Virus record (IMG/VR): IMGVR_UViG_3300018080_000061
Location: 1-40,682 of that record
Reading direction: 5' to 3' (one strand)
Source of the DNA: a virus
Length of the DNA stretch: 40,682 nt
In this document: in pieces, positions 10,011 to 29,925 of the stretch
Position numbering within the stretch: position 1 is the first letter of the stretch
How the letters are laid out: every line of letters begins with the position of its first letter
Made by a program: the position numbers and the translations under genes
Notes under the pieces: model-generated
What the model was told of the DNA's origin: nothing
What the model saw: only the letters and a program-made list of their open reading frames with translations
Databases searched by the model: none

Positions 10011-10739
10011 CTAGGGGGTATTTTTCTCCTTCTTTTTTAGCTTGATAGCCTCTATTGCCTCTTTATGGATTAAGCCTTTGCGTAGATAGTTATGGATATA
10101 ACGATGACACGATTTGCATAATGGTATGAGATTTGTTATATCATTATTAGTTCTATCCTGATCAATGTGATGAACATCTATTTTTTTAATATTTTCTTCC
10201 TTACATATAAAACATTTTGGTGAAAAATATTTTAAAGCTTTTTTTCGAAATGACCCGATTCCATTCTTATATTTTAAAGGACCTGTTTCTTTTCCTATTT
10301 TTTTATATATTTCAGAAGTAGAACAATGCTTACATAATTTTGTTTTATATTTAAAATCATTTCTTACAATTCTTTCTAAGCCACATTTAGGACATTTAAT
10401 TTTATATCCTCTTTGTCTTGCTTTGCCATGTATTACAAAAACTTCATTATCTTTAACACATGATTTTTTATGTTTTTGACTGCATGAAGAGCAATATTTT
10501 GCATTATTAGATAATCTGACTGTTTCTTTCTTCCCACAATCTAAACATTTACGGACTCTACCAGTATATTTTTTCCCTTTAGAATAATAGATTATTTCTC
10601 TATAAGACCTTTTACATTTTAAACAAACTTTTCCTAAATTATTATCACGGACTATTTCTTCATTTCCACATTTTTCACAAACACGAACTCTTCCTTTATA
10701 TTTCCTTCCTTTAGAATCAAAATAAAAAACTGACTCCAT
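10011..10739 (-). CDS. free-standing HNH endonuclease with three zinc ribbons
   Basis: The protein has 242 residues. Three CxxC...CxxC ribbons come first: C21/C24/C39/C42, C65/C68/C83/C86 and C116/C119/C136/C139. The first two share a duplicated lead-in, KGRKYKGRVRVC and KGKKYTGRVRKC. The HNH domain follows with C176/C179, H190-H191, N and C208/C211/H212 (local DVHHIDQDRTNND and LCKSCH). These are freestanding homing nucleases that cleave and convert neighbouring alleles. It lies between two tail genes, outside any intron I can see, with GAGG upstream of the ATG. Confidence 0.85.
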   Translation of the reverse strand: MESVFYFDSKGRKYKGRVRVCEKCGNEEIVRDNNLGKVCLKCKRSYREIIYYSKGKKYTGRVRKCLDCGKKETVRLSNNAKYCSSCSQKHKKSCVKDNEVFVIHGKARQRGYKIKCPKCGLERIVRNDFKYKTKLCKHCSTSEIYKKIGKETGPLKYKNGIGSFRKKALKYFSPKCFICKEENIKKIDVHHIDQDRTNNDITNLIPLCKSCHRYIHNYLRKGLIHKEAIEAIKLKKKEKNTP

Positions 10740-25893: not shown

Positions 25894-28800
25894 TTACCCT
25901 AGTGTTGCACGTAGACTTATTATCCACGCGTCGTTTGTTCGGTCTGTTACTTGTATGACCTGTTTATTCAACAGGCGGGGAAAACTCTTCGGATTTCCCT
26001 CTCGTGCTTTCGTCACGAGTGCAGACTTTCGCATCCTCTTTCGAGGTCTTCTTGTTAAGTCGTTCAGCGTGAAATTCATGGTTTCTATGGTTTGATATAT
26101 GACATGTAGGACATTTCCAAATAACATCAAGAGGCTTTGAATAATCTTCATGGTGTGCATGCGTTTTGCCAACACATTTACATACTTCACAAACATTAGA
26201 ACGAATAAGTTGCCCTTGAGCAATTGCGCGTTTGACTTTGTCATGCGCTTTAGCTTTTTCTTTATGTTCTTTACGATACATTCGATCATATTCATTCTTC
26301 TTATGTTTATATCCTTCTGTTTGTCTGTGTTTTAAAGCTCTCTTTCTTGCTTCTGATCGACTTTCTTCGAGATTGTTTGTGTGTCTCTCTCTTAGTCGAG
26401 CATTTAAAAGATCCTTTTTTTTCTTTTGCCATTCGGACTTATACCTTTTAATTTTATCTATCGATTCTTTAGATCGAATTGTTTCTTTATTCCTTATCCT
26501 ACAACATATTTTGCATTTTTGGTTTAAACCAAACTTGCCTTTTTTGTCTTTACCATAATCTTCAAATGGTTTTCCAATTCCACATCCTGTACATATCTTG
26601 AGCATTGTTTTCCTTCTGGTTCAAACAATATATGATACATGGAATTCCATTCTTTTTCCATAAACTTCTTCGCCCCTGTCACCATATTATGCAGCCTCCT
26701 GCATAACGTAGGTTTCCAAGTCAATTAAAGAAGATTTTACAAGGACAACATTCTTTATCCTTGGCACTTGCGCCATACGCCAAGCACATGTCTGACGTAA
26801 TTCAGCAGGATCATCGCCGTCAATTCTGTTACTTGTATGACCTGTTTATTCAACAGGCGGGAAAGGTTCTTCGACCTCTCCTCTCCAGGTTTCCTCTGGA
26901 GTTCAGACTGTCGCATCTCCTTACGGAGTCTCCTTGTTCAGTCGTTCACGCTGCCCACCTCTCGGTTGCTTGCGCCCTGTCACCCTCGGCATTTTCCGTT
27001 AGGGCCTCCAAGTCAATTAAAGGAGATTTAACCAGGATTCGGGTCTTTGTTGTTAGTCCTGGTGGGTGATATATGAACTTAGCACTCACCCCATTTTGTT
27101 CAATCTTTGCATATGCATCTTGTGCAGATATAAAACAATTATAAACATCTGCTCCAAGAAGAGACGCTGCAACTGTTACGCTTCCACGTGAAGATAGGAA
27201 GAAACGTACGTTTCCAATAGATCCCCATTCTGCTGGAGAAATATTTGCTTGATTTGGATACTGAGCTTTATTAATGAAGCCGTTAGCAGCTTCCAATTGC
27301 CCAATCATGCCTGTATCACACATACCAAAGTATGAGTCTCTTACAGGACCTGTTCCAAATTTATCCTGACCTTCAATAACGTTAGCTACAAAATCGCCAT
27401 CGTTACCTTGTAGGGTTGCTACTACTCCGTCGACATCTGCACGAGTGAGTTCTGTTGGATTGTCTCCATTTACTCCATTCACACAGTTTACGACAGAGGC
27501 TGTTCCTGCTAGCATGTCTCTTATCAATTGATCTTCTGTTTCTCGAAGTGACTGACCTAAGCGGGCAGCTGCTTCGTTTAAAACCAAACTGTTACTTTCA
27601 GCCACTGGGCTTACTGACCATATGATTAGTATGGCGAGGGAAACTCTTCGGATTCCCTTCACAAGTTTTCTTTGCCAACTATACCTGTGTTCAGACTTTC
27701 GCATCTTCATTATGAAGCCCTCTCGTTAAGTCGTTTACGGTGGCTTTCACCTTCCGCCTTGTCGTCCTGTTGTAGGACTTCCAAGTCAATTAGAGAGGAT
27801 TTATAGACCCCATTATTTGCTTTAACCAAATCTTGATAACATTGTTCTCTAAAAGAAGATTCTTTTTCTGAGACTCCAGCTCTACAATATTTAGTTCTCT
27901 TTATGTTTTTACAAAACTTTAACAGTATTTCAGCACTTTTTTTCTTTAAATGAAGATAAGGAATGCACTTTTCTAAGAAACTTGCTACCTCATCAAAGGA
28001 ATGAATACTAAACCTATAAGAAAAACCTGATTTACAAGTTTTTGCTTTTATCAATTTAATATTTCCTACAGAACAATATTTACCTACAAAAGCTATAGCT
28101 TCTAAATTTTTCATGCCTAAACTTATTATAGGATTATATTTGTAAGAATTATGAATATTTTTTACTTCTCTTTTAATAGAAAAAGAACCATCAGTATCGA
28201 AAAGACCTCCAATATACGCCCAAACTAAGGGATTATCACTTGGATTCTTTTTTATCTTTCCGATTGAAGACTTGCTAATACCGCTTTCAGCATTCATTTT
28301 TTTCATCTTCAAATAAGTTCTTTCTTTTCGCGCCAAGTTTTTTTTTGACACATCTCCTCTTTTATATAGAGAATTTTCAGACAAGTAACCTAAAAGACGC
28401 GTAGCCCTTTCTTTCTTTAGTTGTAGATATGGCAAAATTTCCTTTAGAAAACCTTCTGATTGTTTTTTTTCTAATACCCAACGCCAAGATTCTTTTCTCT
28501 TTCCACCGTCTTTGCCTATATATGATTTTCTATGAGAAACAGAGCCTCCGAACTCATCTTTAAAATAATAAACAAATTCTTTGTTTGTATGAGAAAGCTG
28601 CATAGCTGGATAATAATATGGATAAGGGGAGGAATTTCTTTTAAGCAAAGAAAAACTACCATCTCCATCCATTACTCCTGCCACATAGGCTAATCTTGTC
28701 ATTCTTTTTTGTCCTTTCATCTTATGCCTCCTTTTTTCTTCAGAGACATTTTACTTTAAAGTACCTTTATTATACAATGATTTCACACAGAAACCATTGT

Positions 28801-29141
28801 TAAGCTGCTAAAGCTGTAAATCCTTTATGGTTAGGGTCTTGATTGATTAATGAGACCTGCTTCGTTATTAAAACGTATGTAGCGTACCAGTCGATGCGGG
28901 CATCAATATCTATAGCCTGCAAAGTCTGTACAGGAGGATTCAACATAGCAGGTCCTAGAGGGACAGGTGCTGTGTTCAATCTTGTGTACCTTCGCATTCT
29001 GAGGATATCGCCGCTTCTTTCTTCCATCTCGTACGGAATAGCGCACATGCCATGAATTAGGCGAGCTTGCGGTGTCGCAAGTAACTTAGCGTTAAACTTT
29101 TGTTGCACGGGAGCGGGAAGTACTGTACTTGTTGTACTCAT
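25894..29141 (-). CDS. major capsid protein (N4-gp56-like), four exons split by three group I introns
   Basis: Joining complement 29141-28833, 27584-27055, 26816-26757 and 25939-25894 gives 945 bases in one frame, 314 residues. Exon 1 ends VSLINQDP; exon 2 starts VLNEAAARLGQSLRETEDQL and runs to SAKFIYHPPG; exon 3 gives the DDPAELRQ...AQVPRI part; exon 4 gives NDAWIISLRATLG. In sequence this is the N4-gp56 capsid family (KAQYPNQANISPAEWGSIGN, GADVYN). 5' sites of introns 1 and 3 are fixed by perfect P1 helices with the U-G pair. The intron 2 boundaries are less certain: an alternative 3' site at 26826 would add three residues. Exon 4 is only 46 bases. Confidence 0.88.
25940..26756 (-). ncRNA. 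group I intron 3 in capsid gene, with HNH ORF
   Basis: The intron is 817 bases. P1 is clear: exon CAAGGAU pairs with GUCCUUG (26741-26747), seven pairs with U-G at the splice site. P10 is supported: UGUU just 5' of that guide pairs with AACA at the start of exon 4, fixing the 3' site after ACCG (25940). The core has AATTGACTTGG, GGTGACAGGG, CTGAACGACTTAAC and GATGCGAAAGTCTGCAC. The HNH ORF is inserted between the P4-side and P7-side core segments and its 3' end overlaps the core. Confidence 0.88.
25964..26605 (-). CDS. intron-encoded HNH homing endonuclease
   Basis: The protein has 213 residues. An N-terminal Cys cluster (C5, C8, C31, C34) forms a zinc finger. A long basic helical region (40-130) follows. 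The HNH domain has C139/C142, H151-H152 (THAHHEDYSKPLDV) and C165/C168/H169 with H173. The family AHHEDYSKPLDVxWxCxxCH is known from phage intron and free-standing nucleases. AGAAGG precedes the ATG. The last about 35 codons (from ERLNKK on) are read from ribozyme core sequence, so the C-terminus is constrained by the RNA. It cleaves intronless capsid alleles (inferred). Confidence 0.88.
   Translation of the reverse strand: MLKICTGCGIGKPFEDYGKDKKGKFGLNQKCKICCRIRNKETIRSKESIDKIKRYKSEWQKKKKDLLNARLRERHTNNLEESRSEARKRALKHRQTEGYKHKKNEYDRMYRKEHKEKAKAHDKVKRAIAQGQLIRSNVCEVCKCVGKTHAHHEDYSKPLDVIWKCPTCHISNHRNHEFHAERLNKKTSKEDAKVCTRDESTRGKSEEFSPPVE
26817..27054 (-). ncRNA. group I intron 2 in capsid gene, ORF-less
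   Basis: The intron is about 238 bases, close to a minimal group I intron. The exon end ACCAGGA pairs with UCCUGGU (near 27030-27036), with an imperfect junction before the splice site. The core has AATTGACTTGGAGG, GGTGACAGGG, GTGAACGACTGAAC and GATGCGACAGTCTGAAC, then CTCCAGAGGAAACCTGGAG as a P9 hairpin. No separate ORF is needed, although the frame stays open from exon 2 through the core. Its last about 35 bases before the 3' site match intron 3. Confidence 0.8.
27585..28832 (-). ncRNA. group I intron 1 in capsid gene, with LAGLIDADG ORF
   Basis: The intron is about 1248 bases. The exon end AGACCCU pairs with GGGGUCU (near 27806-27812), giving seven pairs ending in the expected U-G. The endonuclease ORF lies inside the long P1 loop and runs on into the core. 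Core elements include AATTGACTTGG, AAACGACTTAAC and GATGCGAAAGTCTGAAC, the P3/P7-type segments of phage group I introns. The 3' end at 27585 (CAGTTTG) was chosen because it restores NQDP-VLNEAA. A 3' site at the shared AGTAACAG end, six bases later in one alternative, would give an extra residue or shift frame. Confidence 0.85.
27710..28720 (-). CDS. intron-encoded LAGLIDADG homing endonuclease
   Basis: The protein has 336 residues with two motif copies: LAYVAGVMDGDGSFSL (about 10-24) and WAYIGGLFDTDGSFSI (about 167-182). It is therefore a monomeric two-domain LAGLIDADG enzyme, each motif keeping its acidic metal ligand. AGGAGG lies six bases before the ATG, so it can be translated separately from the capsid. 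The C-terminal 35 residues (from SSLIDLEV) come from intron core sequence. It sits in the P1 loop of capsid intron 1 and presumably cleaves the intronless capsid site. Confidence 0.9.
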   Translation of the reverse strand: MKGQKRMTRLAYVAGVMDGDGSFSLLKRNSSPYPYYYPAMQLSHTNKEFVYYFKDEFGGSVSHRKSYIGKDGGKRKESWRWVLEKKQSEGFLKEILPYLQLKKERATRLLGYLSENSLYKRGDVSKKNLARKERTYLKMKKMNAESGISKSSIGKIKKNPSDNPLVWAYIGGLFDTDGSFSIKREVKNIHNSYKYNPIISLGMKNLEAIAFVGKYCSVGNIKLIKAKTCKSGFSYRFSIHSFDEVASFLEKCIPYLHLKKKSAEILLKFCKNIKRTKYCRAGVSEKESSFREQCYQDLVKANNGVYKSSLIDLEVLQQDDKAEGESHRKRLNERAS

Positions 29142-29851: not shown

Positions 29852-29925
29852 ACCTATCCTTTGGGGTTGCGATTCCCTGTTTACGCTGATCATTAACGTT
29901 GATCAAACGTGTATTAAATAATTTA

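Follow-up and report, generated by a model that had tools for sequence, protein, structure and literature searches.

How a phage obtains one intact shell protein from a gene that its genome carries in pieces is the question raised by the locus considered here. The window analysed is an entire virus record of the IMG/VR database (IMGVR_UViG_3300018080_000061, positions 1 to 40,682; 40,682 nucleotides), and it holds a major capsid gene on its minus strand, at 29141-25894 and flanked by the genes at 29893 and 25881, whose parts lie in different reading frames. The best overall explanation, and probably the right one, is that the phage, tailed and uncultured, has a capsid gene interrupted by three mobile group I introns from a single family, that splicing restores the capsid protein, and that the introns also encode degron-like tails for the protein made from unspliced message.

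Exons and junctions of the capsid gene

Joining 29141-28833, 27584-27056, 26820-26757 and 25939-25894 gives a single frame of 315 codons and a stop (948 nt). Exon 1 (309 nt, codons 1-103, MSTTST..NQDP) ends after NQDP at 28833, and the capsid sequence restarts with VLNEAA at 27584 after 1248 nt, as the initial annotation had described. It had also recognized that the joined exons share one frame and that exon 4, which encodes the C-terminus ..TNDAWIISLRATLG-stop, has 46 nt, whereas its figures of 60 bases for exon 3 and 314 codons for the whole were slightly low. Exons 2 and 3 measure 529 and 64 nt. Over residues 3-310, the joined protein has a match to PHROG 1357 'major head protein' at an E of 1.6e-24, as compared with only 4.6e-14 for exon 2 on its own, and the neighbours of the gene include a P22-type portal and a large terminase. 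A relationship to N4-gp56 capsids was not found, in a comparison that did not include N4 gp56 itself; PHROG 1357 was the best match, and Phage_capsid_4 fell just below the cut-off.

A scan with exon 2 yielded 50 relatives. In the genome L003, the same protein is encoded without introns (94% protein identity, 847/948 nt identical, no gaps across the three junctions), exon 1 being likewise uninterrupted. A capsid homologue continuing through the introns would, by the initial annotation's own test, have spoken against them; L003 runs straight through the joined exons, an outcome in favour of the introns. Since it is intronless and gap-free, comparison with it fixes all three junctions, which lie between ..GACCCT and GTTTTA.., between ..CCAGGAC and ACGGCG.., and between ..CCAAGGAT and AACAAA... 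The second cannot be moved in either direction, and C is therefore the true last base of exon 2. When junctions were placed from protein alone, they fell 0-2 nt from the position given by the P1 rule for most introns; this placement missed the sites in L034 s3, L007 s3 and L058, which are fixed by the guide helix.

Ribozyme cores and guide helices

Judged from their sequences, the three segments between the exons (intron 1, 27585-28832, 1248 nt; intron 2, 26821-27055, 235 nt; intron 3, 25940-26756, 817 nt) are almost certainly group I introns, as initially proposed, and every structural feature open to testing agrees. The three core motifs reported as common to them each occur three times on the minus strand, only within the introns, and not at all on the plus strand. 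Structure was assessed in 21 introns, the three of the window and 18 of relatives, with positions at fixed offsets and not chosen by pairing; the P4 partners were picked by eye. Exon and internal guide sequence (IGS) pair at 141/147 positions of P1, compared with 59% when shuffled, P3 pairs at 146/147 compared with 77%, and P7 is paired in all. Cognate pairing in P1 and P3 lies so far above the shuffled values that chance is excluded for these helices.

Introns 1 and 3 each have a P1 of 7 bp with U.G (exon AGACCCU and IGS GGGGUCU, ending in the U.G; exon CAAGGAU and IGS GUCCUUG), and intron 3 has the P10 AACA/UGUU. These helices had already been noticed, but the 6-bp P1 of intron 2 had been missed, and P10, described for intron 3 only, is found in all three window introns (3-4 bp), each of which has a terminal G. 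Across the 21 introns, U.G stands at the splice site in 20; P10 is present in every complete intron tested, and all of these except one end in G. In an alignment of 11 contiguous cores made with MAFFT, 97.4% of cells are paired over P3-P8, and 20 of the 28 core pairs show double changes. The covariation score of 0.608 compares with 0.205 in shuffles (0/500) and with at most 0.152 when slid, and RNAalifold recovered P3, P4, P5, P6 and P8 unaided. The guanosine-binding G-C pair of P7 is invariant (11/11 aligned cores, columns 135-175), P7.1/P7.2 are missing and P2 is slight or absent. In vivo, splicing with exogenous guanosine would proceed by two transesterifications per intron, guided by P1 and P10, and would join the four exons into the message for a 315-aa capsid protein.

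Two findings weigh against this assignment. Intron 2 departs from the near-universal U.G at the 5' splice site, and the Rfam model RF00028, with which a search had initially been suggested, has no match in the window, at the gathering score or at E 10. On T4 (NC_000866), taken as a control, RF00028 finds nrdD at 105 bits, but td and nrdB score 40 and 36, both under the cut-off of 50 (143595-143825 and 138508-138748). Because these proven introns also fall below it, the miss is weak evidence and, as a check, uninformative.

In intron 2, exon CCAGGAC faces IGS AUCCUGG, which form 6 bp plus a C.A that replaces the U.G. The two wobbles have a similar geometry, and Doudna, Cormack and Szostak are said to have found in 1989 that wobble geometry, not base identity, defines the 5' splice site and that C.A can serve; intron 2, with its C.A, would be nature's equivalent of that laboratory result. 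The site-2 intron of L020 has CCAGGAU and GUCCUGG, and since it carries U.G where intron 2 carries C.A, both partners of the splice-site pair have changed together. The P10 of intron 2 is changed too, in that CCG replaces CCA upstream of the guide, and matches its different 3' exon. Intronless L003 has GGAC at this site, as does L007, which is uninterrupted there, so intron 2 appears to be adapted to a C-bearing target.

The end of exon 2 pairs 6/7 with the guide of intron 3 and that of exon 3 pairs 6/7 with the guide of intron 2. Skipping of the 64-nt exon 3 is therefore conceivable, and it would shift the frame to ..YHPPGQQTTRG. Exon skipping is known in Twort and SIOphi (PMC11878797).

Some relatives vary in the core or at its ends. 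In L017, L034 and L046, P7 is variant, one more base following the guanosine-binding G-C pair (AACGnAGCA / UGCUCU). A swapped guanosine-binding site, considered for these three and L047 (P7 AGCA/UGCU), was dropped, as the alignment keeps G-C with one inserted base. The site-4 intron at L047:3881-5001 would end in A, or else its junction moves by one and the U.G is lost; it is possibly a natural omega-A intron.

Alanine-ended tails predicted for unspliced messages

A ribosome on the unspliced message would pass each splice site in the exon frame and, in all three window introns, end on a short peptide with Ala-Ala at its C-terminus. The tail from exon 1 into intron 1 (28800-28832) reads NHKGFTALAA-stop, that from exon 2 into intron 2 (26946-27055) reads ..LTTKTRILVKSPLIDLEALTENAEGDRAQATERWAA-stop, ending in ..RAQATERWAA, and that from exon 3 into intron 3 (26687-26756) reads IKNVVLVKSSLIDLETYVMQEAA-stop, ending in ..TYVMQEAA. 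Retention of intron 1, 2 or 3 would give truncated capsid proteins of 113, 315 or 323 aa.

To survey such tails, a first set of introns was fetched by the core pattern regardless of gene and a replication set by another motif, and the exon frame was taken as the longest open frame upstream, provided that it had at least 60 codons and was clearly the longest. Misassigned rows (the endonuclease frame of intron 1 and exon 3 in L002, and the donors of L358 and L420) were left in. Tails end in Ala-Ala in 38/74 introns of the first set and 16/30 of the independent replication set (54/104 in total), compared with 2/148 and 0/60 (2/208) when these introns are read in their two remaining frames; the figure for 1974 open reading frames (ORFs) of at least 150 aa at the same loci is 3.2%. 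At 46 of 63 distinct sites, the exon frame is the single open frame of the core (a third expected; p = 1e-10). The spacing between splice site and guide, which is the length of the P1 loop, tracks the codon phase modulo 3, being a multiple of 3 at phase 0 and leaving a remainder of 2 at phase 1 and of 1 at phase 2 (p = 8e-12), and it is through this shift that the exon frame meets the open frame of the core. Counting frame 0 only among core-crossing tails would be circular, given that stops in the conserved core close both remaining frames; that count was dropped in favour of the unconditional test and a table of spacing by phase. Taken together, these sequence comparisons make it very probable that the pattern is real and under selection at the protein level.

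The decisive part of the ssrA degron is Ala-Ala, and it is fairly likely that the intron-encoded tails work in the same manner, so that ClpXP or a protease like it destroys the truncated protein made on unspliced mRNA, with the length of each P1 loop tuned to the codon phase of its site so that the tag stays in frame. Truncated capsid subunits would plausibly poison shell assembly, and this is where the value of a tag would lie. The exceptions are instructive: early stops without a tag are found where only 12-15 codons precede the intron and in one of the two introns that follow codon 19. Like the tag that transfer-messenger RNA (tmRNA) carries (AANDENYALAA), many tails end in Ala-Ala, often in LAA; similar ones are NHKGFTALAA, AYFLLAA and SSFALVA. 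They differ in being encoded by the intron and translated from the pre-mRNA, whereas the ssrA tag is added in trans by tmRNA, and most lack an SspB-type AANDENY element.

Several observations count against a degron. About half of the introns have no Ala-Ala tail, and those in ribonucleotide reductase genes mostly stop immediately at the splice site. In L292, L327, L224, L256, L270, L406 and L419, the tails end in VS, IS or FS (..AYGVS, ..VVAFS). The introns share ancestry, so the rows of the survey are not independent, and in some the Ala codons lie within structured RNA (the P5 hairpin or P6). These last points speak for a by-product: the introns would be ordinary group I introns in which conserved RNA structure (the P5 hairpin, the 3' strand of P6) happens to read GCN GCN stop in the exon frame. 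Several tails do end in structural RNA, in the P6/J6-7 segment GCAGCGUGA or in the P5 hairpin GGCTGCATAA. Such a by-product would not, however, be expected at about 15 distances past the core motif L-I-D, in 39 distinct hexapeptides (Leu being commonest at -3) and with 17 combinations of codons and stop that include all three stop codons. Nor does it account for tails that stop ahead of the core, where they are free of ribozyme constraint, and that likewise end in -LAA, -LTA or -LVA (..YQDAYFLLAA, ..AANSAFFALTA, IENNSVALLAA, SLAA, ..YQEAYLLAA, VANDSSFALVA). Frame alignment would further require that L1, the loop of P1, have a length that offsets the phase, and that intron frame has an Ala-Ala end in 48/76 introns whose exon frame is aligned with it but in only 2/22 of those whose exon frame is not (Fisher 6e-6), a contrast partly confounded by lineage. 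On balance, a by-product is unlikely, though it is the most serious competitor.

An in-frame stop might also serve splicing itself, by terminating translation at a set place that aids or times folding, with the last residues affecting termination and not stability. In-frame stops in group I introns have been viewed as causing ribosome stalling that helps folding (PMC3984707), and the splicing of T4 introns depends on translation (PMC11878797). The stalling view does not predict Ala-Ala, least of all at stop positions that vary so widely or in the -LAA and -LVA endings upstream of the core, and in T4 td the stop lies right at the splice site; this explanation is thus improbable. The frameshifts and stops in the genomic reading frame could point to a broken pseudogene with inserted endonuclease genes, or to such an arrangement created by assembly error; both can be dismissed almost entirely in view of the exact guide helices, the restored frame, the exons conserved with intronless relatives and the identical 3248 bp on a separate contig, L002, which makes an error of this kind unlikely unless both contigs come from one set of reads.

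The usual view of group I introns is that they are tolerated because they are spliced out. If the tails are degrons, a selfish RNA would have evolved a second, protein-level limit to its harm, a tag for the unspliced case, and this would help to explain how such introns live in dominant, stoichiometry-sensitive capsid genes. Literature searches, confined to a library of open-access papers, turned up no intron-encoded degron.

Probable mobility, spread and known counterparts

Intron 1 has its core at 27689-27811, at the 3' end, and a terminal G. In its P1 loop lies an ORF for a LAGLIDADG homing endonuclease (27710-28720; PF00961, E 3.4e-9), which has its own ribosome-binding site (AAAGGAGG) and whose 3' end overlaps the core. 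Intron 2 (core 26901-27038) has no ORF of its own. Model R1 matches both core halves of intron 3, which carries in the P6 loop an endonuclease ORF (25964-26605) that matches PHROG 2340 endonuclease over residues 3-181 (E 8e-28) and no family in a Pfam search. The presence of introns varies at many sites among close relatives, and those of the window are absent from L003 and many others. Endonuclease ORFs in L1 and L6 together with such polymorphism are the marks of mobile introns, and the two endonucleases would probably mediate homing. Introns 2 and 3 share about 37 identical nucleotides near the 3' end (CCCGCCTGTTGAATAAACAGGTCATACAAGTAACAGA; 26821-26861 and 25940-25980), where the site-3 introns of relatives carry TTAGAGATAAGG, which suggests gene conversion between introns within one gene.

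In two clades of the capsid family, introns occupy at least 13 positions, with one to three per gene. Insertions lie near positions 12, 88, 103, 143, 213, 280 and 301 (window numbering) in the clade of the window and at 15, 19, 222, 227, 253 and 290 in the second, and three introns per gene are present in the window and L002, in L034, and in L135/L136. Model R1 also matches the class III ribonucleotide reductase gene of Desulfovibrio phage 7757 and the P22-type coat gene of MW202674, which is annotated as two separate coat coding sequences. As Rfam misses the family, many split capsid genes are probably misannotated in this way.

The initial annotation had called three introns in one capsid gene unusual, a view tempered by two published cases. 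Passages on a crAss-like phage (PMC7886860) describe a major capsid protein gene in five fragments in the Zeta-group cMAG OLRF01000054, likewise split many times by group I introns with endonuclease domains; guide helices, exact junctions and read-through tails do not figure in them. In Twort, three group I introns interrupt orf142, a late structural gene, with exon skipping, but this gene encodes the tail tube and not the capsid (Landthaler and Shub 1999, cited in PMC11878797 and PMC6669764). That a capsid gene can hold several group I introns, and that a gene can hold three, was thus already published. As far as the open-access papers searched go, what looks new is an Rfam-silent family with many capsid sites, a C.A splice site with a co-varying guide, and degron-like tails.

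T4 td, nrdB and nrdD also have an endonuclease ORF within the intron. The td intron has the same P7, A-(bulged C)-G-A-C-U, and the U.G in P1; it differs in giving no convincing match to model R1, and nrdD differs from the window introns in being found by RF00028.

Some further observations concern other genes and genomes. In L226 (IMGVR_UViG_2541047086_000003), the same intron family lies in the tail tape-measure gene, with a tail ..QGASVIAA. The capsid gene at L198:308-1341 is split near codon 34 with no match to model R1, perhaps by another intron type. At 1940-2510 of L128 (OR838459.1, Stenotrophomonas phage StenR_269), a LAGLIDADG-type endonuclease gene is flanked on both sides by a near-copy of the capsid start (MSFSGM..), which gives the impression of an insertion that duplicated the first few codons. 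A host call from bins of metagenome-assembled genomes was dropped because Lokiarchaeota, Syntrophaceae, Simkaniaceae and Saccharibacteria bins conflict. Elsewhere in the window, at 10011-10739, an HNH endonuclease ORF lies among tail and structural genes with no ribozyme core nearby, and it looks free-standing.

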